A DNA stretch of 32,048 nt from Balnearium lithotrophicum. GTDB taxonomy: Bacteria > Aquificota > Aquificia > Desulfurobacteriales > Desulfurobacteriaceae. Positions within the stretch are counted from its first letter, which is position 1, and each line of letters opens with the position of its first letter. The notes under the pieces were generated by a model. It did not search any database and was not told where the DNA came from. It was given only the letters and a program-made list of their open reading frames with translations. Shown piece by piece: positions 3,558-19,570 of the stretch. The stretch lies in contig NZ_FXTM01000005.1 of the NCBI RefSeq assembly GCF_900182585.1, forward strand, positions 1 to 32,048, in the 5' to 3' direction. Position numbers and translations under genes: made by a program.

Positions 3558-4589
3558 ATGGCCGGAATTGAAAACCTTCAAAGATTAAAGGAAGAGTTTT
3601 TCAAAAGACTTGACGAATCCTCAAACCTTCAGGATGTTGAAAACTTAAGGGTTGAGTACTTGGGAAGAAAGGGAAAGGTTACAGAGCTCCTAAAAAAAAT
3701 TCCTACACTTCCACCTGAGGAAAGGAGGGATTTTGGAAGAGCCTGTAATCAGCTGAAGGGAGAACTTGAAAGAGCTCTAAAGGAAAAAATTAAAGAGTTC
3801 AAGGAAAAGGAGAAACTTGAAAGACTGAGAAAGGAAAAAATAGATGTAACCCTTCCCGGAAGGAGAAAACCTTTAGGAGCTCTCCACCCTGTTACAAAAA
3901 CACTCAAGGAGATAGTAAAAATTTTCACCTCAATGGGATTTTCAATTGCCGAAGGTCCCGAGATTGAAACTGACTTTTACAACTTTGAGGCACTAAACAT
4001 TCCTAAAGGCCACCCTGCAAGGGAGATGCAGGATACGTTCTACATATCAGATGAGATTGTTCTAAGAACCCATACATCTCCCGTTCAGGTCAGGGTAATG
4101 GAAAAGCACCAGCCTCCCATTCAGATAATTGCTCCCGGAAAGGTTTACAGAAAGGATGCAGACGTTACACACACTCCAATGTTTCATCAGGTTGAAGGCT
4201 TAATGGTTGACCGGAGTGTTACGTTCTCAGATTTAAAGGGAGTTTTGGAACTCTTCCTTAAGGAAATTTTCGGCTCAGATACAAAGGTCAGATTCCGTCC
4301 ATCGTACTTCCCGTTTACGGAGCCAAGTGCAGAGGTTGACATAGGTTGCGTTATATGTGGAGGAAAGGGCTGTAAGGTATGTAAGGGAACCGGTTGGCTT
4401 GAAATCTTAGGGTGTGGAATGGTAGACCCTGCAGTATTTAAATCGGTAAACATAAATCCAGAGGTTTATCAGGGATTTGCCTTTGGAATGGGGGTTGAGA
4501 GGATAGCAATGCTGAAGTACGGAATAGACGACCTGAGGCTCTTCTTTGAGAACGACCTGAGATTCTTAAGACAGTTTAAAGGAGTATAG
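3558..4589 (+). CDS. pheS: Phenylalanine--tRNA ligase alpha subunit
   Basis: This is the catalytic subunit of the class II (alpha-beta)2 phenylalanyl-tRNA synthetase, which charges tRNA-Phe with Phe in the cytoplasm. The 343 residues comprise an N-terminal coiled-coil arm (about 1-90, charged Lys/Glu repeats) that binds tRNA and a catalytic core from about residue 110. Motif 2 is near [20 protein letters not shown] and the Phe pocket near [16 protein letters not shown]. Motif 3 is [14 protein letters not shown]. Between the pocket and motif 3 lies a four-Cys insertion (Cys264, 267, 272, 275; [12 protein letters not shown]) where E. coli has a short Cys-free loop; it could bind a metal. The ribosome binding site is AGAAGGAG. 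pheT follows after 2 nt. Confidence 0.97.
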
Positions 4590-4591
4590 GA

Positions 4592-6970
4592 ATGAAGGTT
4601 ACTTACAACTGGATAAAGGAGTTTATTGATATAGATGACCTTTCTGCAAATGAGGTTGCAGAGATACTTACAGACGTTGGAATTGAGGTTGACAGCGTAA
4701 GGTACGCCGGGGAGAACATCGAGAAGGTAGTAACGGGAAAAATCATAGAGATTTCTAAACACCCAAATGCCGATAAATTAAGGATTTGTCAGGTAGACAT
4801 CGGTGAAACGGTCCTTCAGATAGTTACAGGTGCAGATAACGTCTTTGAAGGAGCCGTTGTTCCTGTAGCCCTCCACGGCTCAAAGCTCCCAACGGGAGTT
4901 AGAATAAAGAGGAGCAAGCTCAGGGGAGTTGTCTCAAACGGAATGCTCTGCTCTGAGGAGGAGTTGGGTCTAACGGAGAGCTCTTCAGGAATAATGATTC
5001 TCCCGGATGACACTCCTATAGGAAAGGACGTTAAGGAAGTCCTCAACTTGGACGACTGGATAATTGAGTACGAGATAACGACAAACAGACCCGACGCCCT
5101 CTCCGTCTTAGGAATAGCGAGGGAACTGAAGGCAGTTTTAGGGAGGCAATTAAAACTTCCAGATACATCATTTGATTTAGGGGACTTTAAGGCCGAAGAT
5201 GAGGCCTCACTCTCCGTTTTAGACCCGGCAGGATGTCCGAGGTACGAGGGGTTCGTTGTTAAGGGAATTGAGAACAGGGAATCACCACTCTGGATGAAGG
5301 TAAGGCTCTATCTGGTAGGTTTAAGACCTATAAACGCTGTTGTTGATGTTACAAACTACGTAATGTACGAACTTGGACAGCCCCTTCACGCCTTTGACCT
5401 TGAAAAGATTTCAGAAAGAGAGGTTGTTGTAAGGAGAGCAAGGGAAGGAGAGAAAATAAAAACACTTGATGGAGTGGAAAGAGAACTAACAAAGGACGAC
5501 CTCGTCATTGCCGATTCCGAAAAGCCCATTGCAGTAGCCGGCGTTATGGGCGGAGAGGAGAGTGGAACGGACTTTACAACAAGGGAGCTCTTTTTAGAGT
5601 CTGCCCACTTTGACCCTATGTCAATAAGGAGAACATCAAAGAGGTTGGGCCTATCAACGGATGCATCCTACAGGTTTGAGAGGGGAGCTGACATAGAGGC
5701 TTGTAAGTTTGCGGCTGAGAGAGCTCTCCACCTAATTCAAAGGTTAACAGGTGGAAAAGTTGCTCAGGGGAACCTCTCCTTCTACCCCAAACCCTACACC
5801 CCAAAGGTTATTGCATTTAATCCCGAGAGGGCGACTAAGCTCTTAGGCGTTCAAGTCCCTGCAAGGAAGTCATTTGAAATTCTTTCAGGTCTTGGCTTTC
5901 AGGTTAGAAAGGAGCAGGACTACATAGTTGTGAAGGTTCCTTCCTGGAGAAGGTACGACGTTTCGAGGGAGATAGACCTAATTGAGGAAGTTGTAAGAAT
6001 TTACGGAATGAAGAACGTTGTAAGTACATATCCCCTCATGCACAGTGAAATAGAGAGGAACTTCGACTACTTTAAGGTCTCTGAGTTAAAGGATTTCCTA
6101 TCATCGTTAGGACTAAACGAGGCCATAAACTACAGCTTTATAGGTGAAAGTCTGTACTCAAAGTTTGGACTACCCGTTGAAAACTTAGTGAAAATTTCGA
6201 ACCCGCTCTCTGAGGAGTGGGTCTACATGAGGAACTTTATCTTTCCAAGTCTTGTAAAAAATGCCGTAACGAACATAAACAGGAACGAAAGGGACGTTTT
6301 CCTCTTTGAGGTTTCAAAGGTTTTCAACCCTACGGGAAAGGAGCTCCCCGAAGAGGTCTTAAAGTTGGGGGTTTTAATTTCTGGAGAGGTTCCGGAGCTC
6401 TGGAAGAGAAGAAGGGTAGATTTTTATGACATTAAGGGAATAGTTGAGTCGTTAGGGGAATACCTGAAGTTAAGACTTGAATTTAAAAGAACAGAGAAGT
6501 TTCACTTCCTCCATCCGGGACAGTCTGCAGAAGTTCTTGTTGATGGAAAGCATGTAGGTTTTCTCGGAAAGCTCCATCCGGACGTTAATGAGGCCTTTGA
6601 TGTCAATGAGGAAATCTTTGTTGCCGAGGTTAACCTTGAAGAGTTCCTCAAACTTTCAAAAGAGACAAGAACAACCTTTAAGCCAATTCCAAAGTTTCCT
6701 CCCGTTAAGAGGGACCTATCACTGATAGTTGACAGGGATGTACCTGTTTCAGAAATTGAACAGGTGATAGAGGAAAGCGGAAAGTACCTTGAAAGGTTGG
6801 AACTCTTTGACGTCTACGAAGGGAAGGGAATTCCTGAGGGTAAAAAGAGTGTGGCATTTTCACTTACATTCAGAGCTCTAGACAGAACTCTTTCAGATGA
6901 GGAAGTTAACAGAATTGTGGATGGTATAATTAAGGAGCTTTCTAAAATAGGAGCTACGTTAAGGGGCTAA
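4592..6970 (+). CDS. pheT: Phenylalanine--tRNA ligase beta subunit
   Basis: The 792-residue beta subunit has full bacterial length. In order it shows an EMAP-like OB-fold tRNA-binding domain (about 40-150, around KHPNADKLRICQVDIG and GMLCSEEELGL), the B1/B3/B4 editing region (about 200-390, with NYVMYELGQPLHAFD and GVMGGEESG), a B5 DNA-binding-like domain (about 400-475), a catalytic-like core without activity (about 480-690), and a C-terminal ferredoxin-fold anticodon-binding domain (about 700-792, PKFPPVKRDLSLIVDR). It pairs with PheS and hydrolyses mischarged Tyr-tRNA-Phe, as known for the family. It lies 2 nt after pheS and 12 nt before zapA. Confidence 0.97.
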   Translation: MKVTYNWIKEFIDIDDLSANEVAEILTDVGIEVDSVRYAGENIEKVVTGKIIEISKHPNADKLRICQVDIGETVLQIVTGADNVFEGAVVPVALHGSKLPTGVRIKRSKLRGVVSNGMLCSEEELGLTESSSGIMILPDDTPIGKDVKEVLNLDDWIIEYEITTNRPDALSVLGIARELKAVLGRQLKLPDTSFDLGDFKAEDEASLSVLDPAGCPRYEGFVVKGIENRESPLWMKVRLYLVGLRPINAVVDVTNYVMYELGQPLHAFDLEKISEREVVVRRAREGEKIKTLDGVERELTKDDLVIADSEKPIAVAGVMGGEESGTDFTTRELFLESAHFDPMSIRRTSKRLGLSTDASYRFERGADIEACKFAAERALHLIQRLTGGKVAQGNLSFYPKPYTPKVIAFNPERATKLLGVQVPARKSFEILSGLGFQVRKEQDYIVVKVPSWRRYDVSREIDLIEEVVRIYGMKNVVSTYPLMHSEIERNFDYFKVSELKDFLSSLGLNEAINYSFIGESLYSKFGLPVENLVKISNPLSEEWVYMRNFIFPSLVKNAVTNINRNERDVFLFEVSKVFNPTGKELPEEVLKLGVLISGEVPELWKRRRVDFYDIKGIVESLGEYLKLRLEFKRTEKFHFLHPGQSAEVLVDGKHVGFLGKLHPDVNEAFDVNEEIFVAEVNLEEFLKLSKETRTTFKPIPKFPPVKRDLSLIVDRDVPVSEIEQVIEESGKYLERLELFDVYEGKGIPEGKKSVAFSLTFRALDRTLSDEEVNRIVDGIIKELSKIGATLRG

Positions 6971-7881: not shown

Positions 7882-9518
7882 TTGCCATATTTGCAGTTGT
7901 AGCAGGTCTTGCAGGGGGATACGTCTTTGGCTCCAAGAAGGGGCAGGTCGTAAGGGAGGAGTTGGAGAGGAAAATCCTTGAGGAGGCCAAGAAGGAGGCT
8001 CAGGGAATTATTAGCAGGGCAAAGGAAGAGGCAGAAGAGCTAAAGAGAAGGGCGGAGAAGTTAGAAAAGGAAGCCGAAACAAAGTACGAGGAGATGAAGA
8101 AAAAGGCCATTATTGAGGCTAAGGAGGAGCTCCTTAAGGAGAAGGAAAAGTTAGAGGCCGAACTAAAGGAGAAGAAGAGGGAACTCTCTGAGCTTGAAAA
8201 GAGGTTGCTCAGAAGGGAAGAGTACATAGAGAAGAGGGAGGAGAACTTAGATAGAAGAGCAACCTTTTTGGACAAAGTTGAGGCAGAATTGGAGGAGAAG
8301 AGGGCAGAGGTTGAAAAGTTGGAGGCAGAACTCCTTGAGAAGGAGGTTAAACTCAGCCAGCTTCTTGATGAGGAGATGAAGAAGTTAGAGGAAATTGCCG
8401 GAATGACCAAGGAGGAAGCTCAGGAAGAGCTCATGAAAAGAATGGAAGACGAAATAAGGAGGGACTTGGCAGTCAGGTACAAGCAGATTGAGGAAGAGTT
8501 TGAGCAGACTGTAGATAGAAGGGCGAAGAAGATTCTTGCAACAACGATTCAGAGGTTGGCTACAGACGTTGTTGCCGAAACGACAGTTTCTGTCGTTGAC
8601 CTTCCAAACAACGAGATGAAGGGAAGAATTATAGGAAGGGAAGGAAGGAACATTAGAGCTTTTGAGCTTTCAACCGGTGTTGACCTCATCATCGATGACA
8701 CTCCTGAAGCAGTAACAATTTCATCGTTTGACCCTGTTAGGAGGGAGATAGCAAGGATTGCCCTTGAGAGGCTCGTTGCTGACGGGAGAATTCACCCTGC
8801 AAGAATTGAGGAGGTTGTTGAGAAGGTCAAGCAGGAGATAGAACAGGAGATGATGAGTGCTGCTGAGGAGGTCCTCTTTGAGTTGGGAATAGAGAGGGTT
8901 CACCCTGAACTTAAAAAGCTCTTGGGAAGGTTAAAGTTTAGAACAAGCTACGGCCAGAACGTCCTTCAGCACGTTAAGGAGGTTGCTTACTTGGCCGGAA
9001 TGATTGCTGCAGAGATAGGTGCGGATGAAAAACTTGCAAGGAGAGCGGGACTCTTCCACGACATAGGAAAGGCGGTGACCCATGAGGTTGAGGGTTCCCA
9101 TGCAATAATTGGAGCAGAGCTCCTCAAGAAGTACGGAGAGCCTGAAGCAGTTGTCAATGCCGCTGCCGCCCACCACGGAGAGGTTGAGTTTACAACTGTT
9201 GAATCTGTGTGTGCTGCAACTGCCGATGCCCTTTCAGCAGCAAGGCCTGGAGCGAGAAGGGAGAGCTTAGAGGCCTACATAAAGAGAATTGAGAAGTTGG
9301 AGAGCATTGCAGAGTCGTTCCCCGGAGTTATGAAGGCCTTTGCAATTCAGGCAGGTAGAGAGGTCAGGATAATGGTTGAACCCGACAAGATAACCGACGA
9401 GGAGGCTGAATTCCTAGCTCACCAGATTTCAAAGAAGATTGAGGAGGAGGTTCAGTACCCCGGTCAGATTAAGATAACAGTTATAAGGGAAACAAGGGCA
9501 GTTGACTATGCAAAGTAA
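7866..9518 (+). CDS. rny: Ribonuclease Y
   Basis: This is a membrane-anchored endoribonuclease that starts mRNA decay. Counted from ATG 7866 (550 aa), residues 1-22 form one membrane helix, 25-200 a long charged coiled coil, about 245-305 a KH domain with GRIIGREG at 253-260, and about 360-470 an HD domain with His398-Asp399 in FHDIGK. ATG 7866 is chosen over an in-frame TTG at 7848 because AAGGAGG (7854-7860) is ideally placed for it and it puts the anchor at the N-terminus. The gene starts inside the end of ygfA and its end overlaps selB by 11 nt. RNase Y as the main mRNA decay enzyme would fit a bacterium without RNase E, but that cannot be seen here. Confidence 0.96.
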
Positions 9519-11418
9519 GAAGTTTTTGGTTGTTGGAACCGCAGGACACATCGACCACGGAAAAACGAGTCTAATCAGAGTTCTCACTGGGGTTGATACC
9601 GATCGTTGGGAGGAGGAAAAGAGGAGGGGGATGACTATCGATTTGGGATTTGCCCACTTAGAGCTCCCCAACGGCGTTTTGGCCGGAATAGTTGACGTTC
9701 CGGGACATGAAAAGTTCATAAAGAACATGCTTGCAGGGGCTCACGGCTTGGACTTAGTTCTATTTGTTGTTGCGGCAGACGAGGGGGTAATGCCCCAGAC
9801 TGAGGAGCACCTGACTGTCTGCCAGACACTTGGAACAAAGAGGGGAATTGTAGTTCTTACTAAAAAGGACCTTGTAGATGAGGAGTGGTTAGAACTTGTA
9901 AAGGAAGAGGTAAAGGATTTTGTAAAGGGGACGTTTTTGGAGGGAGCTCCCATAGTTCCCGTCTCCTCAAAAACGGGAGAGGGAATAGATGAGCTCTTAG
10001 AGGAACTCTCAAAGGTTTCCTCACAGGTAAAACCAAAGAGTTCTGAGGGTTTTCTGAGACTTCCTGTTGATAGGTCGTTTACAGTTAAGGGATTCGGAAC
10101 AGTTGTTACGGGAACTCTACTTTCGGGGAAGTTGGAGGTAGGGAAAGAGGTCGAAATACTTCCGAAGGGAATCAAATCAAAGGTCAGGGGAATTCAAGTT
10201 CACGGTAAGCCTGTTGATAGGGCATTTGCCGGCCAGAGAACGGCTGTCAATTTGGCCGGTGTCTCAAAGGAGGAGGTTAAGAGGGGAGACCTAATTTCAG
10301 CTCCCGGATACCTTAAGCCCACGAAATTGGTCGATGTTGTCTTAGAAGTGTCAAGGAGCGCAGATGTAGTTGTCGAATCCGGTTTTAAAGTTCACTTCCA
10401 CCACTTAACGAGTGAAACGGAAGGAGAAGTTTACCTTATTGATAAGGAGGAGCTCCTTCCGGGAGAGAAAGCCCTTGCCCAGATAAGGTTGAGGGATGAG
10501 GTCGTTCCCGTTTACGGCGATAGGTTTATAGTCAGGAACTATTCACCTGCAAGGGTTATCGGAGGAGGGTGGATAGTAAACCCTCTACCTGAGAAAAAGT
10601 TTAGGAGGAGGTTCAGGGATAGGTGGATATCCTTTCTTACTCCCTTAACGGAAAGGGAAAAGGTTGAAGGGAAGTTAATTTATTTGGTTGGTAAGTTTCC
10701 GGGGAAGTTCTCCTACGGCGATTTTGTCCAGAGGTTGGCCTTATCTCCAAGGGAAGCTAAAGAATTGACAGAAAAACTCATTTCAGAGACTAAGATTAAT
10801 GAATTCAACAGAAAACTCTATCCTCCAACGTTTAAGGAGGAACTAAAGAGGAAAATTTTGGAGGAAGTAGAAAGGTACCATGAGACTTATCCTGTTTCTG
10901 AGGGAATAAACAGGGAGTCCTTGAGGACAAATTTAAACATTCCTCAGGAACTCTTAGAAACGGTAATTTCAGAACTTTCAAGTGAAGAAAGGATTGAAGA
11001 GGTTGGCTCTCAGTTAAAACTAAAAGGATTTAAGCCAGAACCAAAGGGGGAGTTTTCAGAAATTGCAGACATACTGAGAAAATACTCTAAAAAAAGTTTG
11101 TTCTCTCCACCATCATTAAAGGAGATTTCTAAGGAAACGGGAATTTCTGAAACAAAGGTATACATGACTGCCGACTACTTAGTTAGAAATGAGGGATTTC
11201 ACAAAATAGGCAACTTCCTTTTCTCTCCAGATGCCTTTAAGAAAATTGTCAAAATCCTGAAGGAGCACTTCTCAAGGGAAGAGACTCTATCGGTTTCCGA
11301 ATTTAAGGACTACTTAGGGGTGAGCAGAAAGTTTGCAATTCCGATACTGGAATACCTTGACTCTATCCAACTGACCGAAAGAAAAGGTAACGAGAGAATA
11401 AGGGGAAGAGCTCTCTGA
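9508..11418 (+). CDS. selB: Selenocysteine-specific elongation factor SelB
   Basis: SelB is a GTPase that delivers Sec-tRNA(Sec) to UGA codons marked by a SECIS hairpin. The 636-residue protein shows G1 GHIDHGKTS, switch II with DVPGHEK, and G4 in the TKKD form common in SelB. Domains II-III follow (about 175-350), and a long C-terminal region (about 350-636) has winged-helix repeats ([31 protein letters not shown]) that bind the SECIS. EF-Tu and IF2 lack this extension. ATG 9508 lies inside the end of rny; an in-frame TTG two codons earlier is also possible. No selA, selC or selD is visible. Its presence implies the organism makes selenoproteins, although the formate dehydrogenase in this window uses Cys. 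Confidence 0.93.
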
Positions 11419-13014: not shown

Positions 13015-14367
13015 TTGATAAGTAAGGAAACACTTAAGGAATGGGATAAGAGGTACGTCTGGCACCCCTTTACTCAGATGGCAGAGTACGTTAAGTACGA
13101 GCCGATAGTTATTGAGAGGGGAGAAGGATGCTGGCTCATAGATATTGATGGAAAGAAATATTTAGACGCTGTAGGTTCCATATGGTGCAACGTTCACGGC
13201 CACAATGTTAAGGAACTAAACGATGCTCTGTGTGAACAGGTTAACAGGATTGCCCACTCAACGCTCTTGGGACTTGCAAACGTACCTTCCATCTTACTTG
13301 CCAAAAGATTAGTTGAAATAACCCCTAAAGGGTTGAATCACGTTTTCTACTCTGACGATGGCTCTACTGCAATGGAAGTTGCCCTGAAAATGGCCTATCA
13401 GTACTGGCAGTTAAAGGGAGAAAAAAGAAGAACAAAGTTCATAAAGCTTGAGGAGGCATACCACGGAGATACAATAGGCTCTGTAAGTATTGGAGGAATT
13501 GACCTCTTCCACTCAATGTTTAGAGAACTCATGTTTGAAACCTTTAAGGTTCCAGCTCCCCATCCATACAGGTTTAACGGAACAGTCGAGGAGTGTAAAG
13601 AGTACTCGTTAAACAGATTGAAGGAAATTTTGGAAGAACACGGTGAGGAAGTTGCTGCAGTTGTTATGGAGCCCTTAGTCCAGGCAGCTGCAGGGATGAT
13701 TGTCCACCCGGAGGGCTTTTTAAAGGGAGTCAGGGAGCTCTGCGACGAGTTTGGAGTTTTACTAATTTTAGACGAGGTTGCAACGGGATTCGGAAAGACA
13801 GGAAAGATGTTCGCATGTGAGTGGGAAGGTGTAGTTCCAGACATCATGGCAATATCTAAGGGATTAACTGCCGGATACATGCCGTTGGCAGCTACACTTT
13901 CAACTGATGAAGTTTACAGTGCCTTTTGGGGAGGAGACTACGGCAGCGGAAAAACGTTCTTTCACGGACACACCTTTACAGGAAATCAGCTTGGCTGCTC
14001 CGTTGCCTTGAAAAACTTAGAGCTCTTTGAAGAAAAGGATTGGCCAGAAAGTTTACGAAATAAGATTGATTATCTCCACAAGAAACTCTACGAAGAACTC
14101 TCGGAATTGAAACACGTTGGAGATATAAGGGGAAGGGGATTTATGGTAGGAATTGAGCTTGTAAAGAACAAGGAAACGAAAGAGAGCTTTAGCTGGAAGG
14201 ACGACGTTGGAAGACGGGTTTCAAGGAGAATAGTTGAAAAGGGAGTATTTACAAGACCTTTAGGTCCTGTCCTTGTAGTAATGCCTCCCCTTGCAATAAG
14301 CAAAGAGGAGATAGACTTTATGATTAGAACCTACAGGGATGCCATTTTTGAGGAGTTGGAACGCTAA
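13015..14367 (+). CDS. bioA: Adenosylmethionine-8-amino-7-oxononanoate aminotransferase
   Basis: This PLP enzyme of biotin synthesis makes 7,8-diaminopelargonate from 8-amino-7-oxononanoate, with SAM (or Lys in some bacteria) as amino donor. The 450-residue class III aminotransferase starts with the BioA signature KRYVWHPFTQM. It has the PLP-binding GSTAMEVALKMAYQYW, the catalytic-domain LILDEVATGFGKTGKMF and the Schiff-base Lys in AISKGLTAGYMP. The start is TTG 13015 with an excellent AAGGAGGA site 4 nt upstream that overlaps the previous stop. Other bio genes are not in the window. It ends the long plus-strand operon and overlaps the convergent UspA gene by 4 nt at the 3' end. Confidence 0.93.
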   Translation: MISKETLKEWDKRYVWHPFTQMAEYVKYEPIVIERGEGCWLIDIDGKKYLDAVGSIWCNVHGHNVKELNDALCEQVNRIAHSTLLGLANVPSILLAKRLVEITPKGLNHVFYSDDGSTAMEVALKMAYQYWQLKGEKRRTKFIKLEEAYHGDTIGSVSIGGIDLFHSMFRELMFETFKVPAPHPYRFNGTVEECKEYSLNRLKEILEEHGEEVAAVVMEPLVQAAAGMIVHPEGFLKGVRELCDEFGVLLILDEVATGFGKTGKMFACEWEGVVPDIMAISKGLTAGYMPLAATLSTDEVYSAFWGGDYGSGKTFFHGHTFTGNQLGCSVALKNLELFEEKDWPESLRNKIDYLHKKLYEELSELKHVGDIRGRGFMVGIELVKNKETKESFSWKDDVGRRVSRRIVEKGVFTRPLGPVLVVMPPLAISKEEIDFMIRTYRDAIFEELER

Positions 14368-14852
14368 ATCTCCTCGTTTCCTTCCTCCTCCTTTGTTTTT
14401 ACTATCAGAATAGGAGATTCAATCTCCTTTATTATGTCAAGGACCTTTCCGACCTTGAAAAATGAGAGGGATTCATCCGTTATTCCAAGAGCTACGAGCT
14501 TGATGTTGTACTCCTTTGTATACCAACTGAGACTCTCTGCCAACTCACCTGAAATTAAGGAAACTCTTGTTTTTATTCCCCTTTCCTCAAACTCCTTAGC
14601 TAAATCCTTCAATTTCCTGTAGGTTCTTAAGAGGGCATCTACATAACCATCATCAATAGTTCCTCGTAGGGCCTCAATCTTATCTTCAGAATCGTACTCC
14701 TCTTTCTCCAAGATTCCCCAGTCTGATGGAATTAAAACGTAAACAATGTGAACCTCAATACAGCCGGCCTCTTTCAATTTTAGAATGTAAGGTTTAACGT
14801 TAATACTTGCTCTTCTAAGGTCTACCGGGTAGAGAATTCTCTCAAAAAGCAT
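14364..14852 (-). CDS. UspA-like protein lacking the ATP-binding glycines
   Basis: The 162-residue protein has the universal stress protein fold pattern: FERILYPVDLRRAS at the N-terminus, VHIVYVL after the first helix, and SPILIVKTKEE at the C-terminus. The G-x2-G-x9-G-(S/T) nucleotide loop is not recognisable; the equivalent stretch is ALGITDESLSFFKVGKVLD. It is therefore probably a non-ATP-binding class member or a heterodimer partner of the upstream UspA paralogue. ATG 14852 is preferred over GTG 14855 because GGAGG lies 4 nt before it, and it overlaps the stop of that paralogue (TGATG). The 3' end overlaps the bioA stop by 4 nt, with no terminator between the convergent genes. Confidence 0.8.
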   Translation of the reverse strand: MLFERILYPVDLRRASINVKPYILKLKEAGCIEVHIVYVLIPSDWGILEKEEYDSEDKIEALRGTIDDGYVDALLRTYRKLKDLAKEFEERGIKTRVSLISGELAESLSWYTKEYNIKLVALGITDESLSFFKVGKVLDIIKEIESPILIVKTKEEEGNEEI

Positions 14853-15322
14853 CACTCCTCCCTATTTTTAACTATTAGAACTGGACACTTGGCATTCCTT
14901 ATAACGTCAGTTGAAACACTTCCTAAGAGAATTTCAGTTAAAAGGCCCTTTCCGTGAGCTCCCATCACTATTATCTTAACTTTCTCTTTTTCTGCTACAT
15001 CAACTATCTGCTTCGGGATATTCCCGTATTTTAAGTAAATTTTTACAGATAACCCTTCCTCCTCTAATATCCTTTTCACAGCTTCCAACCTTTCTATCAG
15101 TGAAGTAACGTACTCCTGGTCAACCTCAGGAAGAATCTTGTAGAGCTCCTTGTCGTTTAAAAGGTCTGCCCCGTCGGGGAGCTCTATTGAAAGGTCATCA
15201 ACTACGTGAACAACAACAACCTCCTTTTCTCCAGCCTCCTTTAGTTTTTTAACGTAGTCTAAGGCAAGCTCGGCAAGTGGTGAAAAATCCGTCGAGTAAA
15301 GAACCTTTTCAAACAGCGGCAT
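14852..15322 (-). CDS. Universal stress protein UspA family, ATP-binding type
   Basis: The 156-residue protein fits the single-domain Usp fold. It opens with LFEKVLYSTDFSPLAELALDY, whose Asp contacts adenine in family members, has the strand VVVVHVVDD, and carries the complete G-x2-G-x9-G-S loop in MGAHGKGLLTEILLGSVS near the C-terminus, followed by CPVLIVK. It should bind ATP or AMP. The start is ATG 15322 with AAGGAGGG upstream. It is the middle gene of a three-gene minus-strand unit that begins with the PP-loop protein, 10 nt away, and it is translationally coupled to the divergent UspA-like gene after it. Stress role is by family only. Confidence 0.92.
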   Translation of the reverse strand: MPLFEKVLYSTDFSPLAELALDYVKKLKEAGEKEVVVVHVVDDLSIELPDGADLLNDKELYKILPEVDQEYVTSLIERLEAVKRILEEEGLSVKIYLKYGNIPKQIVDVAEKEKVKIIVMGAHGKGLLTEILLGSVSTDVIRNAKCPVLIVKNREE

Positions 15323-15332
15323 CTCTCCCTCC

Positions 15333-16322
15333 TTATCCTGTTACAGAAAATTCCTTTGTATCAAATAGAGGTTCAACAGTTAATTCTTTAAATAGTTTAC
15401 CATTTTTATACAGGGCTACTTTAACCTCCTTTTCACTCTTTGCATCGGAATATCTTGCAACTATCCCTGCAGCTTTTTTTAGAAGTTCTACAGATGGCTC
15501 CTCCTTACACCTCAAAATTGCCGTTGGGGATGGAACGTTTGGAACTTTTATAACAATATCCCCCCCCCTTGAGAATTCCTCTAACCTTTTATTCTCTTCT
15601 CTATTTCTTCCTACAATCAGTTTACAGTTTCCGAGTCTAAAGTGCCTTCCTATTTTCAGCAGCCTTACGTTTTCCCAGGAGAGCTCTCCGTGTTCCAACA
15701 GGTCCTTAACCTTCTTTGAGAAGGAGGGTTCGGTTAAAAGGCACCCCCCAGCTGGTGTAGGAAGCTCCTCAATGTTTACTCCTAACTTTTTTAAAATCTC
15801 AGGATACTTCTTCCTTGAACGTCCCCTTATATCAAGGAGTTTTTCCCTGTTGATTACTCCTTCCTTCTCATAATCTGTCTCCGGCAAAAGTTTCCCAGAT
15901 AGTGGCCTTAAAACTCTACCTTTCAGACCTGAAAGCTTTTCGATTGAGTTAAAGGCTTGAAGGTGTTGAGACATAGGTCTCTGTCCTAAAACCTCTCCAG
16001 TTGCGATGATTCCATTCTCTCCTGCAACTTCCTTAACCTTCTTCAGCATGTAGGCCTTACAGTCAATACAAGGGTTGAGGTTCTTTCCATATCCGTAAAC
16101 GGGACTCTTTAGCATTTCAAGATAGTCATCCCCCGCTTCAACAACTTTAAGCTCTATTCCCAGTTTGTTGGCTAAATCCTGCAGCTTTTCTAAGTCCTTT
16201 TCAAAGAACGGGGAAGTAATGTGGACACCCACTACGTCAAATCCAAGGTTCTTCAGCAGTTTTGCCGCAATTATACTGTCAAGCCCTCCTGAGAAGAGGA
16301 GGTAGACCTTCTTTCTCTCCAT
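15333..16322 (-). CDS. PP-loop ATPase fused to an NFACT-R/DUF814-like domain (putative RNA thiolation)
   Basis: The protein has 329 residues from ATG 16322, with GGGAG 7 nt upstream; an in-frame GTG at 16328 would lie too close to that site. The N-terminal PP-loop (SGGLDS, residues 11-16) is that of ATP-pyrophosphatases such as ThiI and MnmA, which adenylate uridine before thiolation. NPCIDCKAY supplies Cys85 and Cys88; GEVLGQRPMSQ resembles the ThiI GESLGQ loop, and TPAGGCLL supplies another Cys near 194. From about residue 224, the stretch with LIVGRNREENKRLEEF, GDIVIKVPNVPSP and AAGIVARYSDAK resembles the NFACT-R (DUF814) RNA-binding domain. Such PP-loop plus NFACT-R fusions have been predicted to thiolate RNA. 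The exact target is unknown. First gene of the unit with two UspA genes. Confidence 0.8.
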   Translation of the reverse strand: MERKKVYLLFSGGLDSIIAAKLLKNLGFDVVGVHITSPFFEKDLEKLQDLANKLGIELKVVEAGDDYLEMLKSPVYGYGKNLNPCIDCKAYMLKKVKEVAGENGIIATGEVLGQRPMSQHLQAFNSIEKLSGLKGRVLRPLSGKLLPETDYEKEGVINREKLLDIRGRSRKKYPEILKKLGVNIEELPTPAGGCLLTEPSFSKKVKDLLEHGELSWENVRLLKIGRHFRLGNCKLIVGRNREENKRLEEFSRGGDIVIKVPNVPSPTAILRCKEEPSVELLKKAAGIVARYSDAKSEKEVKVALYKNGKLFKELTVEPLFDTKEFSVTG

Positions 16323-16382
16323 AGACACTCTCCCGATTTGGCCTTAATTTAAAGTTAGGAGATAAAAGAAAAGGAGGAAGGG

Positions 16383-16943
16383 ATGGCCCAACTAAAGCTC
16401 AATCTCATAGGTCACGGAATCGACCTAACGGGGGCAATAAAAAACACCTTGGAGGAAAAATTTAAGAGGCTTGAGAAGTACCTGGGAAACGACGATAGGA
16501 GAGAGGTCTTTGCAGACGTTATTGTAAACAAGGAGAAGTACCGCTCCTCTGTGGAAATCGTTATCTACAACGTATTTGACCACACGTTAAGGATAAAGAA
16601 GGAAACTGACGACCTTTACACTGCCGTTGACTACGTTGTTGACTCTGCGGAAAAGCAGCTACGCCGTTTAAAGGATAAGGTTAAGACAGCATCAAAGAAG
16701 GAAGCCCAAAAAACAAAGCAGTTAACTTTGGTTGAGGAAGAGGCCGTTGAGAAGCCCATAGAAATCATTGAGGTTGAGCCCGAGCTCTACAAACCCATCT
16801 CTGTGGAGGATGCAGTTGTCCAGCTCCTTGGCTCAAAGAGGGAGTTTGTAGTATTCTGCAATGCCGAAACTGGAAATGCAGCCGTTGTCTACAAGAGAAA
16901 GGATGGAAACGTTGGTCTGATAGAGATGCCTTCGTGTAAGTAG
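16383..16943 (+). CDS. hpf: Ribosome hibernation promoting factor, long form
   Basis: The 186-residue protein has the long HPF architecture. Residues 1-105 form the S30AE/RaiA domain (LNLIGHGIDLTGAIKNTLEEK, basic C-terminal helix KQLRRLKDKVK) that binds the decoding centre. A Glu/Lys-rich linker follows. Residues about 135-186 form the C-terminal dimerisation domain (YKPISVEDAVVQLLGSKREF, GNVGLIEMP), which pairs 70S ribosomes into 100S dimers. The start is ATG 16383 behind AAAGGAGGAAGGG. It is divergent from the PP-loop gene across a 60-nt gap and convergent with lepA, with a hairpin in the short gap. Apparently single-gene. Confidence 0.94.
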   Translation: MAQLKLNLIGHGIDLTGAIKNTLEEKFKRLEKYLGNDDRREVFADVIVNKEKYRSSVEIVIYNVFDHTLRIKKETDDLYTAVDYVVDSAEKQLRRLKDKVKTASKKEAQKTKQLTLVEEEAVEKPIEIIEVEPELYKPISVEDAVVQLLGSKREFVVFCNAETGNAAVVYKRKDGNVGLIEMPSCK

Positions 16944-16963: not shown

Positions 16964-18760
16964 TTACTCCACTTTTAAAACTGCTAAAAATGCCTCCTGG
17001 GGAACCTCAACTTTTCCTAACATTTTCATCTTCTTCTTACCCTCTTTCTGCTTTTCGAGGAGCTTCTTCTTCCTCGTAACGTCTCCACCGTAACACTTTG
17101 CTAAAACGTCCTTTCTCAGTGCCTTTACGTTTGAGCGGGCAATTATCTTGTTTCCTATTGCCGCCTGAATGGCAACCTCAAAGAGCTGCCTTGGAATTAT
17201 CTCCTTCAGCTTATCAACCAACTGCCTTCCCCTCTGGTACGCTTTATCCCTGTGAACTATTACAGAGAGGGCATCAACAGGCTTTCCGTTTATCAGGATG
17301 TCAAGTTTAACGAGGTCTCCAGGCCTGTAACCTGCGAACTCGTAGTCGAACGATGCGTACCCTCTTGAAACGGACTTTAACTTGTCAAAGAAGTCAAAGA
17401 GAATCTCTGAAAGTGGTATATCGTAGCGGAGCTCCACCCTTTGCTGGTCTAAGTACGAAAATCCCGTTTGGATGCCTCTCCTATCCTGACAGAGCTGCAT
17501 AACTGGTCCTACGTACTCTGAAGGAGTAATTATGGAAGCGGAAATGTAAGGTTCCTCAATCCTTTCAATCTTTTCAGGGGGAGGCATCTGGGCAGGGTTC
17601 TGGACATCAACAGAACTTCCGTCCTTAAGGTAAACCTTGTATATAACACTCGGGGCTGTTGCTATGAGGTTAAGACAAAACTCCCTCTCAAGTCTCTCCT
17701 TTATTACCTCCATGTGTAGGAGTCCCAAAAATCCACACCTGAAACCGAAACCTAAAGCTGCCGAAGTTTCAGGCTCAAAGAAGAGGGCAGCATCGTTCAG
17801 CTTTAACTTTTCTAAAGCTTCCTTAAGGTTTTCATAGTCGTCCGAATCCACAGGATACAGTCCGGCAAAAACCATCGGCTTTGCAGGTCTGAAACCGGGG
17901 CAGGGCTCATCTGTGGGATTTTCGGCATCGGTTATCGTATCTCCTACCTGGGTATCCTCAATGTTTTTAATGTTTGCAGCTATCCAGCCAACCTCACCTG
18001 CAGAGAGCTTTTCCGTCTTGACCATATTCGGAGACTGAGTTCCAACCTCTACAACTTCAAACTCCTTGTCGTTGGACATGAGCTTTATTCTCATTCCTGG
18101 CTTTATCTCTCCGTCAAAAACCCTTATGTAAGGGATAACACCCCTGTAGTTATCGTAAAAGGAGTCAAAAATCAGAGCCTTTAACGGCCTATTAGGGTCT
18201 CCCGATGGGGGTGGTACTTTCTTAACAATAGCTTCAAGAATCTCCTTTATCCCTATTCCCTCCTTTGCTGAGGCAAGTATGGCATCGTCTGGATCCAATC
18301 CCAAAACGTCTGCAATCTGCTCCTTTACCCAGTCGGGATTTGCACTTGGAAGGTCTATTTTGTTAATGACGGGAATTATCTCAAGACCGGCATCCAAGGC
18401 TAAGAAAAAGTTTGCAATTGTCTGGGCCTCAACTCCTTGAGTTGCATCTATGACTAAAAGAGCTCCCTCACAGGCAGACAGGCTCCTCGAAACCTCGTAC
18501 GTAAAATCAACGTGGCCTGGAGTATCTATTAGGTGCATCGTGTAGGTCTTCCCGTCATCTGCAGTGTACTTCATTCTAACGGCGTTGAGCTTTATCGTGA
18601 TTCCCCTCTCCCTCTCAAGCTCCAAAGTATCCAACATCTGCTCCTTCAGCTCTCTTTTAGAAACAGTACCAGTAAACTCAAGAAGCCTATCTGCCAACGT
18701 TGACTTTCCGTGGTCTATGTGGGCAATTATGCAAAAGTTCCTAATAAGCTCCTGGTTCAT
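16964..18760 (-). CDS. lepA: Elongation factor 4 (back-translocating GTPase LepA)
   Basis: The 598-residue translational GTPase matches LepA/EF4 in full length. It has the G1 motif [15 protein letters not shown] in switch I, DTPGHVDF, and NKIDLPSA as G4. The EF-G-like domains II, III and V follow, and the LepA-specific C-terminal domain includes the signature [20 protein letters not shown] and [20 protein letters not shown]. It acts on the 70S ribosome during initiation or elongation, particularly under ionic stress, according to family knowledge. The ATG at 18760 has GGAGAGG upstream. It lies 39 nt downstream of thiD, and the gap contains TATATT on the minus strand, so it may have its own promoter. 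Confidence 0.97.
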
Positions 18761-18783: not shown

Positions 18784-18803
18784 CTAAAAATATACGTTTT
18801 TAG
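18784..18803 (-). promoter_or_regulatory. AT-rich palindrome with a -10-like box between thiD and lepA
   Basis: CTAAAAA (18784-18790) and TTTTTAG (18797-18803) form a 7-bp inverted repeat with a 6-nt loop that overlaps the thiD stop codon. On the minus strand it contains TATATT (plus-strand 18789-18794) upstream of lepA. It could be a weak terminator for thiD or part of a lepA promoter; the sequence does not decide between them. Confidence 0.3.
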
Positions 18804-19513
18804 AGTAATGAGTACAGCTGTTTAGCTCCACTCAAGAGTATTGATTTTCTCCTGTACTCCTCTAAGAACTTTGAACTTTCAAGAAATGCCTCACTTAGGG
18901 GTTTTCCCTTTGCAAGTAGTGCCGTTAGTGAAGATGAGAATGCACACCCCGTTCCCCTCACAACCCTACCGTCCCTCCTGTGACAGACCTCAGAAACAAG
19001 TTCACCCTCAATAAACAACCTATCACAAACAAGGTCACCCTTCGGAATTCCCTTTACAACTAAATTCTTCCCTCTAACAAAATCTCCTATCAATTTGTAT
19101 TCATCAACGTTCGGCGTTAAGACGGTTGCAACATCTATCAAGGGAGAAATTACAGAAATCCTGTCTATAAATGACTTTCCAAAGGTAGGTGATAAAACGG
19201 GGTCAAAAACAACAGGTACATCCAAACTTTTCAACCTTTCTGCTATTTCTTCATTAACATCTCTATCCCTGTGAGGAATTCCGACTTTTACCCCCCTTAC
19301 ATCAATCTCGTCAAAAATCAGGTCAATCTGCTGTAAAAGGAGCTCCCCATCTGTGAATGAAACCGACAGAACTCCCTTAGTATTCTGTGAGGTGTTTACC
19401 GTAATAACGGCAGTTCCCAAAAAGCCAAAGATGTTAAAGGTTCTAACGTCCCTTAGTATCCCTGCTCCACCTGTAGGATCAAATCCTGCAACTGTTAGAA
19501 GGAAGTCCTTCAT
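18800..19513 (-). CDS. thiD: Hydroxymethylpyrimidine/phosphomethylpyrimidine kinase
   Basis: ThiD phosphorylates HMP to HMP-P and HMP-PP for thiamine synthesis. From ATG 19513 the protein has 238 residues and begins [19 protein letters not shown], with the substrate-binding motif at the N-terminus as in other ribokinase-fold ThiD proteins. [20 protein letters not shown] and the anion-hole and catalytic motif [11 protein letters not shown] are present, giving a complete but short ThiD. ATG 19513 is chosen over a TTG 13 codons upstream because GGAG lies 5 nt before it and the extra residues do not fit the fold. No TPP riboswitch can fit in the 57-nt gap to the divergent argS, and no other thiamine gene is nearby. 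Confidence 0.9.
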
Positions 19514-19527
19514 AACATCTCCAATAG

Positions 19528-19533
19528 TATAAT
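19528..19533. promoter_or_regulatory. Overlapping -10-like boxes in the thiD/argS divergent gap
   Basis: TATAAT on the plus strand (19528-19533) lies 37 nt before argS. The reverse strand across the same bases contains TATACT, which could serve thiD. Neither has a clear -35 at normal spacing, so only one, or a shared mutually exclusive site, may be used. Confidence 0.35.
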
Positions 19534-19570
19534 CTGGGTTCAAAGCTAACAAATTAACTCTGGAGAGGCA

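Follow-up and report, generated by a model that had tools for sequence, protein, structure and literature searches.

A THUMP-free, ThiI-like protein with an NFACT-R domain: a putative tRNA 4-thiouridine synthase in Balnearium lithotrophicum and other bacteria and archaea

Balnearium lithotrophicum, a member of the Aquificota, encodes a protein in which a PP-loop adenylating domain of ThiI type is joined to a C-terminal NFACT-R domain. Its gene (a putative NFACT-R-type ThiI-like tRNA sulfurtransferase, hereafter the thiolase gene) occupies positions 15333–16328 on the reverse strand of the 32,048-nucleotide stretch that was analysed (‘the window’, contig NZ_FXTM01000005.1) and specifies 331 amino acids when read from a GTG codon. 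Judged from sequence, the protein very probably puts sulfur into the tRNA of many bacteria and archaea that are without the textbook enzyme, and it is likely to be a tRNA U8 4-thiouridine (s4U) synthase that replaces the canonical THUMP-containing ThiI. The simplest account is that it would work like ThiI and yet is without the THUMP domain by which ThiI is defined. We hold with somewhat less assurance, though still as the likely reading, that the family forms a second, THUMP-free class of s4U synthase, in which a [4Fe-4S] PP-loop domain is combined with NFACT-R, and that this class serves a sizeable fraction of bacteria and archaea and is the s4U writer still missing from organisms that carry RudS. 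Such a class, if it exists, extends to the Aquificota that were examined and to the greater part of a Desulfobacterota-type phylum; s4U would then be more widespread than counts of ThiI suggest, two unrelated RNA-binding domains would serve U8 thiolation, and public records would misname the family.

The open reading frame of the thiolase gene is intact in a mechanical ORF listing, and an ATG at 16322 lies two codons inside the frame that opens with GTG. This ATG is the likelier start because a GGGAG sits 7 bases before it (the same motif is 1 base before the GTG), and the initial annotation, which began the gene at 16322, was probably right; residue numbers are counted from the GTG throughout. 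The same annotation had read the protein as a ThiI/MnmA-like adenylating domain followed by an NFACT-R segment, and both halves of this reading are borne out. In Pfam, the N-terminal part matches ThiI (PF02568, E 5.4e-10) and the HUP domain of MnmA (PF03054, E 2.6e-9), each above its cut-off, and the HMM search that had been proposed for the C-terminus finds NFACT-R_2 (PF18297) at residues 227–323 (15360–15650, reverse strand) with an E-value of 1.6e-20 and a score of 73.6 bits (cut-off 26.9). Pfam and fold comparison together place the PP-loop (HUP) domain at about residues 5–200 (15729–16316, reverse strand). The claim that THUMP is lacking also held, in that neither THUMP nor rhodanese is among the Pfam matches up to E 1. 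There was likewise no match to NFACT_N (PF05833), to the LIM domain (PF22082), or to the PRC-barrel or C-terminal barrel of MnmA, of whose domains PF03054 alone is found. None of the NCBIfam cut-offs is passed, the best model being a hypothetical subfamily of 198 residues (41 bits against 251), and the curated ThiI model TIGR00342 gives 38.9 bits against a cut-off of 264.5, with only model positions 173–314 covered. Across an alignment of 67 rows that includes the window (A2), NFACT-R_2 is found in 67/67 and the ThiI match in 66/67.

Structure prediction agrees with this architecture. An AlphaFold model made from the 67-row alignment has a mean pLDDT of 95.2 and a pTM of 0.90, and its fold matches were obtained as Foldseek candidates that were realigned, domain by domain, with VIA-align 2. 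Residues 3–198 superpose on the Thermotoga maritima ThiI–RNA complex 4kr6 (Z 14.4, 2.8 Å, 162 residues, 30% identity), the top solved fold by Z for the PP-loop domain, with LarE and others tied within 1; LarE (8cnz/8cp4) and TtuA (5b4f) are both among the fold matches. Residues 228–330 superpose on the NFACT-R domain of RqcH (8s1u) with a Z of 14.3 and 1.5 Å over 102 residues. Whole-model TM-scores from Foldseek are low (0.27–0.42 of the query length among the 50 matches listed), as is expected if the two domains are not shared with any one chain.

Within the PP-loop domain, four conserved elements lie on the reverse strand: the PP-loop motif SGGLDS (residues 13–18, 16275–16292), C87-x-x-C90 (16059–16070), the motif GEVLGQRPMSQ (residues 111–121, 15966–15998), which aligns with the GE-LGQ--SQ of ThiI, and a third invariant cysteine, C196, in PAGGCLLT (15741–15743). 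The CxxC and the further cysteine that had been remarked on in the initial annotation proved to be strictly conserved, with C87, C90 and C196 invariant in 121/121 rows representing 118 different proteins, the window included. Besides the cysteines, the invariant positions of these rows are S13, G15–S18, P76, G79, G81, N85, P86, G111, V113, R117, P118, Q121, P142, L143, G169, R172, G195, L198 and G227. When the protein was aligned directly with ThiI proteins, C87 and C90 fell in the same columns as C298 and C301 (frame numbering) of a Freyarchaeal ThiI, whose third cysteine, C381, shares no column with C196 but precedes it by 5 columns in a region with gaps; the CxxC is missing from three other ThiI proteins in that alignment. 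In NcsA and TtuA, three cysteines hold a [4Fe-4S] cluster and leave an iron site free, as described in an excerpt of PMC10067955. By analogy, C87 and C90, and with them C196, are probably [4Fe-4S] ligands. A 2022 paper, going by its title, reportedly deals with archaeal U8 sulfurases of a subclass that depends on a cluster. Seven rows of one alignment (A1), from two other Aquificota families (L027, L028, L029, L031, L036, L040 and L042), have GGCC, that is, two adjacent cysteines where the window has one, and in the same rows 15 inserted residues follow the second strand.

Set beside known systems, the protein is closest in its catalytic half to ThiI/TtuI, the U8 4-thiouridine synthetase, with which it shares the PP-loop SGGxDS, the GE-LGQ--SQ motif and its top fold, but it carries NFACT-R at the C-terminus, has neither a THUMP nor a rhodanese match and falls below the curated ThiI cut-off. 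With the NFACT family (RqcH/NEMF/FbpA) it has the C-terminal NFACT-R domain in common, but an enzyme domain stands in the place of NFACT_N. The PP-loop fold and three conserved cysteines (CxxC plus one) recall TtuA, NcsA and LarE of the [4Fe-4S] type, from all of which it differs in its RNA-binding domain, and from TtuA also in giving no LIM match. The likeness to MnmA, which forms s2U34, is confined to the HUP domain match and an NPC motif, whereas the MnmA of the same genome has all three MnmA domains.

The thiolase gene was found in 41/41 genomes of a set of relatives (Aquificota, with the genome of the window included), and because all of these carry it the domain fusion is not a matter of chance. 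Among the matches listed, Desulfurobacteriaceae/Desulfurobacterium MAGs of the Aquificota are the closest records that carry a name. When one genome per species was scanned, at least 567 encoding places were found, the best 80 of which were used. The rows of the tree described below bear 24 distinct phylum labels from both Bacteria and Archaea, with many MAG labels among these; three Fusobacteriota records of a plasmid collection also encode the gene. In a quickly built tree of 119 rows, drawn with a midpoint root, the order of the window is separated from two other Aquificota families by a branch with an SH-aLRT of 95, which is read solely as meaning that those groups are not nearest kin in it. 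In public annotation, members of the family appear as 7-cyano-7-deazaguanine synthase or as MnmA/TRMU (for instance at 4001–4894 of locus L142 and 201221–202156 of NZ_CP077186.1), and both names are probably misnomers.

The presence of the thiolase gene is set against that of ThiI. ThiI reached its cut-off in 0/41 of the Aquificota relatives, all carriers of the thiolase gene, the strongest match having an E-value of 2e-15, and a ThiI-family search of the whole B. lithotrophicum genome returned the thiolase gene alone (the MnmA of that genome, when scanned as a protein, barely passes the ThiI-family cut-off, with 21.3 against 20.5 bits). Among 50 carrier genomes picked for spread from the best 80 of at least 567 encoding places, ThiI was above cut-off in two (L060 and L069) and split over two frames in one (L087). 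The comparison was extended to two phylum panels, for which a completeness of at least 90% was requested. The first comprised 247 genomes from the phylum of a Syntrophaceae genome, which the locus title suggests to be of Desulfobacterota type; 222 of them carry the thiolase gene, and ThiI was found at E 1e-25 or better in 19, with 16 of these above cut-off. Both genes occurred together in 6 genomes, the thiolase gene only in 216, ThiI only in 13 and neither in 12 (Fisher's exact test, p 7.1e-11, shared ancestry ignored), so that ThiI accompanies 6/222 carriers versus 13/25 non-carriers. In three of the six double genomes ThiI is below cut-off; counting ThiI by cut-off leaves 3 double genomes, with p 1.7e-12. 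The second panel was made up of 196 genomes from the phylum of an archaeal carrier, with the thiolase gene in 14 and ThiI in 166 at E 1e-25 (121 above cut-off). Here no genome had both genes, 14 had the thiolase gene only, 166 ThiI only and 16 neither (p 1.7e-13, shared ancestry again ignored), which is ThiI in 0/14 carriers versus 166/182 non-carriers. The base rates in the two phyla are thus opposite, and exclusion is seen in each. It is strong and not absolute, since 12/247 and 16/196 genomes have neither gene and 6/247 have both.

Neighbouring genes and co-occurring genes connect the family with 4-thiouridine and with sulfur supply. TudS is a desulfidase that prefers 4-thio-UMP and has been proposed to recycle tRNA-derived 4-thiouridine monophosphate (excerpt of PMC10611767); a TudS-family gene lies upstream of the thiolase gene, on the same strand and overlapping or within 42 bases, in 8/8 Bacillota-labelled loci. 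RudS, in which TudS is fused to DUF1722, strips s4U from tRNA (excerpt of PMC11417400), and at one ANME-1 locus a TudS–DUF1722 gene lies 51 bases from the thiolase gene in convergent orientation. For the larger of the two panels DUF1722 alone was counted as a proxy for RudS, and the one panel locus that was examined proved to be a TudS–DUF1722 fusion. DUF1722 occurs in 117/247 genomes: 110/216 with the thiolase gene only, 5/13 with ThiI only, 1/6 with both and 1/12 with neither. The share among ThiI-less carriers (110/216) thus compares with a single genome (G188) among the 12 with neither synthase (p 0.005). The thiolase gene is present in 111/117 genomes with DUF1722 versus 111/130 without it (p 0.02), a modest excess given a background of 222/247 carriers in the panel. 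Loci were obtained from 16 of the 17 genomes of two other Aquificota families, and an IscU-type gene is found upstream on the same strand in 16/16 of these loci, overlapping or within 2 bases in 15 and 242 bases away in one, and an IscS-like class V aminotransferase follows further upstream in 4/16; neither was found in the two short loci of a third family. The TudS and IscU links each come from one lineage. Less frequent neighbours are cysteine synthase-like, MnmA, Thi4-like and ThiL-like genes and genes of homocysteine biosynthesis (sulfur incorporation).

From the ThiI exclusion profile, together with the links to TudS, RudS and IscU, we infer that the target is s4U, most likely at U8. The initial annotation was fair in stating that the RNA target was not established, and this evidence now points to s4U. 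The organisms that have RudS and no ThiI have been described as two groups, one of them mostly thermophilic sulfate reducers, and the authors of that study suspected either ThiI homologues with another domain make-up or an absence of s4U (PMC11417400, 2024, in excerpt). The thiolase family is a concrete candidate for the s4U writer in these organisms: among the 117 panel genomes with DUF1722, the thiolase gene is present in 111 (110 lacking ThiI), ThiI alone in 5 and neither gene in 1.

In the mechanism that we propose, the PP-loop domain would bind ATP and adenylate O4 of the target uridine, as its family membership suggests. C87, C90 and C196 would hold a [4Fe-4S] cluster, and sulfide on its free iron would displace AMP; this step is suggested because the CxxC matches that of the archaeal ThiI and because NcsA and TtuA use three cysteines. 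NFACT-R would dock the tRNA, which in ThiI is the job of NFLD/THUMP, and gene order in the related Aquificota suggests that an IscS/IscU route may supply both the sulfur and the cluster.

An alternative that we regard as unlikely is that another tRNA site is thiolated, either s2C32, in the place of TtcA, or an additional s2U or s4U, with NFACT-R choosing elsewhere. The PP-loop domain does match MnmA, TtuA and LarE as well, and a CxxC with a third cysteine is also found in s2-forming enzymes such as NcsA (excerpt of PMC10067955). A search of the B. lithotrophicum genome with a TtuA of the same genus as query returned TtuA, the thiolase gene, MnmA and a frame of 449 residues, taken by inference to be TilS; TtcA was not seen in this search, and s2C32 is compatible with the inventory there. 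Against this, the larger panel has a TtcA-like gene in 169/247 genomes, and these genes are not depleted in carriers but positively associated with the thiolase gene (160/222 carriers versus 9/25 non-carriers, p 0.0005). TtcA was counted here at E 1e-30, and because only 27/247 genomes pass the curated TtcA cut-off the comparison is a control on homologues; as carriers show no TtcA exclusion, replacement of TtcA was rejected as the source of the profile. Replacement of MnmA or TtuA was rejected too, since the genome of the window has both: a genuine MnmA that has the full set of three domains, and a TtuA that shares 83% identity with one of the same genus that has an N-terminal LIM/zinc ribbon (PF22082). 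Moreover, the partner in exclusion is ThiI, and TudS and RudS have been described as active on 4-thio compounds, as far as excerpts of PMC10611767 and PMC11417400 go. It is very unlikely that the protein chiefly transfers sulfur for the thiazole of thiamine, like the second job of ThiI, with RNA binding secondary. Thi4-like genes do lie near the thiolase gene in 6/96 loci outside the window's family and 4/22 within it (L020, L021, L023, L024, L055, L073, L078, L086, L091 and L098), a ThiL-like gene (assigned to the AIRS family by Pfam and to ThiL by eye) is present in 4/96 outside loci, and a phosphomethylpyrimidine kinase-family gene is found in the window at 18800–19552. Against this, Martinez-Gomez and colleagues reportedly found in 2011, going by their title, that for this role Salmonella ThiI requires the rhodanese domain only, and the thiolase protein has no rhodanese match; NFACT-R is kept in 67/67 rows.

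The initial annotation had further seen, in two stress proteins of one operon and a divergent hpf, a hint of a link to stress or ribosome quality control, and the arrangement itself was confirmed at the locus. Usp gene 1 (14852–15322, reverse strand) begins 10 bases downstream of the thiolase gene, with which it is likely to be co-transcribed, and Usp gene 2 (14364–14855, reverse strand) overlaps it by 4 bases; the gene for the long form of the ribosome hibernation factor HPF (16383–16943, forward strand) is divergent from the thiolase gene. Throughout the window's family (22/22 genomes), a Usp gene lies within 17 bases downstream and HPF on the other side on the opposite strand, the mechanical ORFs overlapping in three loci. 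The check on neighbourhood conservation thus came out in favour within the family, but the window's own proteins, used as queries at E 1e-5, found neither Usp nor HPF neighbours in any of 96 loci elsewhere (74 with at least 1 kb on both sides, 22 with under 1 kb on one side or both). A function in the stress response or in the quality control of ribosomes, such as the thiolation of rRNA or of tRNA on stalled ribosomes, is in our judgement highly improbable: it would accord with the 22/22 conservation and with an NFACT-R fold common to RqcH, but the linkage is confined to one family, the protein has no NFACT_N match, and the genome of the window encodes an RqcH-like protein elsewhere, in which both NFACT_N and NFACT-R are present. 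As a general link, the stress or quality-control operon was therefore rejected. The arrangement may reflect co-regulation within the family of the window and is uninformative on the chemistry of the thiolase family at large, for which s4U synthesis is the preferred reading.

Burroughs and Aravind reportedly noted a fusion of NFACT-R with ThiI in 2014. In the literature searched, no paper was found that treats NFACT-R together with thiouridine, and DUF814/NFACT-R was not found among the literature matches listed; absence from print is not claimed for either. A paper on the tRNA-Cys of A. aeolicus was considered as direct proof of s4U8 and rejected as such. That one review cites it among its s4U8 references (PMC6313347) is counted in favour of s4U8; of two other reviews, one gives m5s2U54 for tRNA-Cys and one m2,2G. 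Just past HPF in the window lie a LepA/EF4-like gene, named by eye (16964–18760, reverse strand), and the phosphomethylpyrimidine kinase-family gene mentioned above (reverse strand), whose family belongs to the thiamine pathway. A gene at 9502–11418 on the forward strand encodes the selenocysteine-specific elongation factor SelB, with the Pfam SelB winged-helix and barrel domains, and the organism therefore probably makes selenoproteins.
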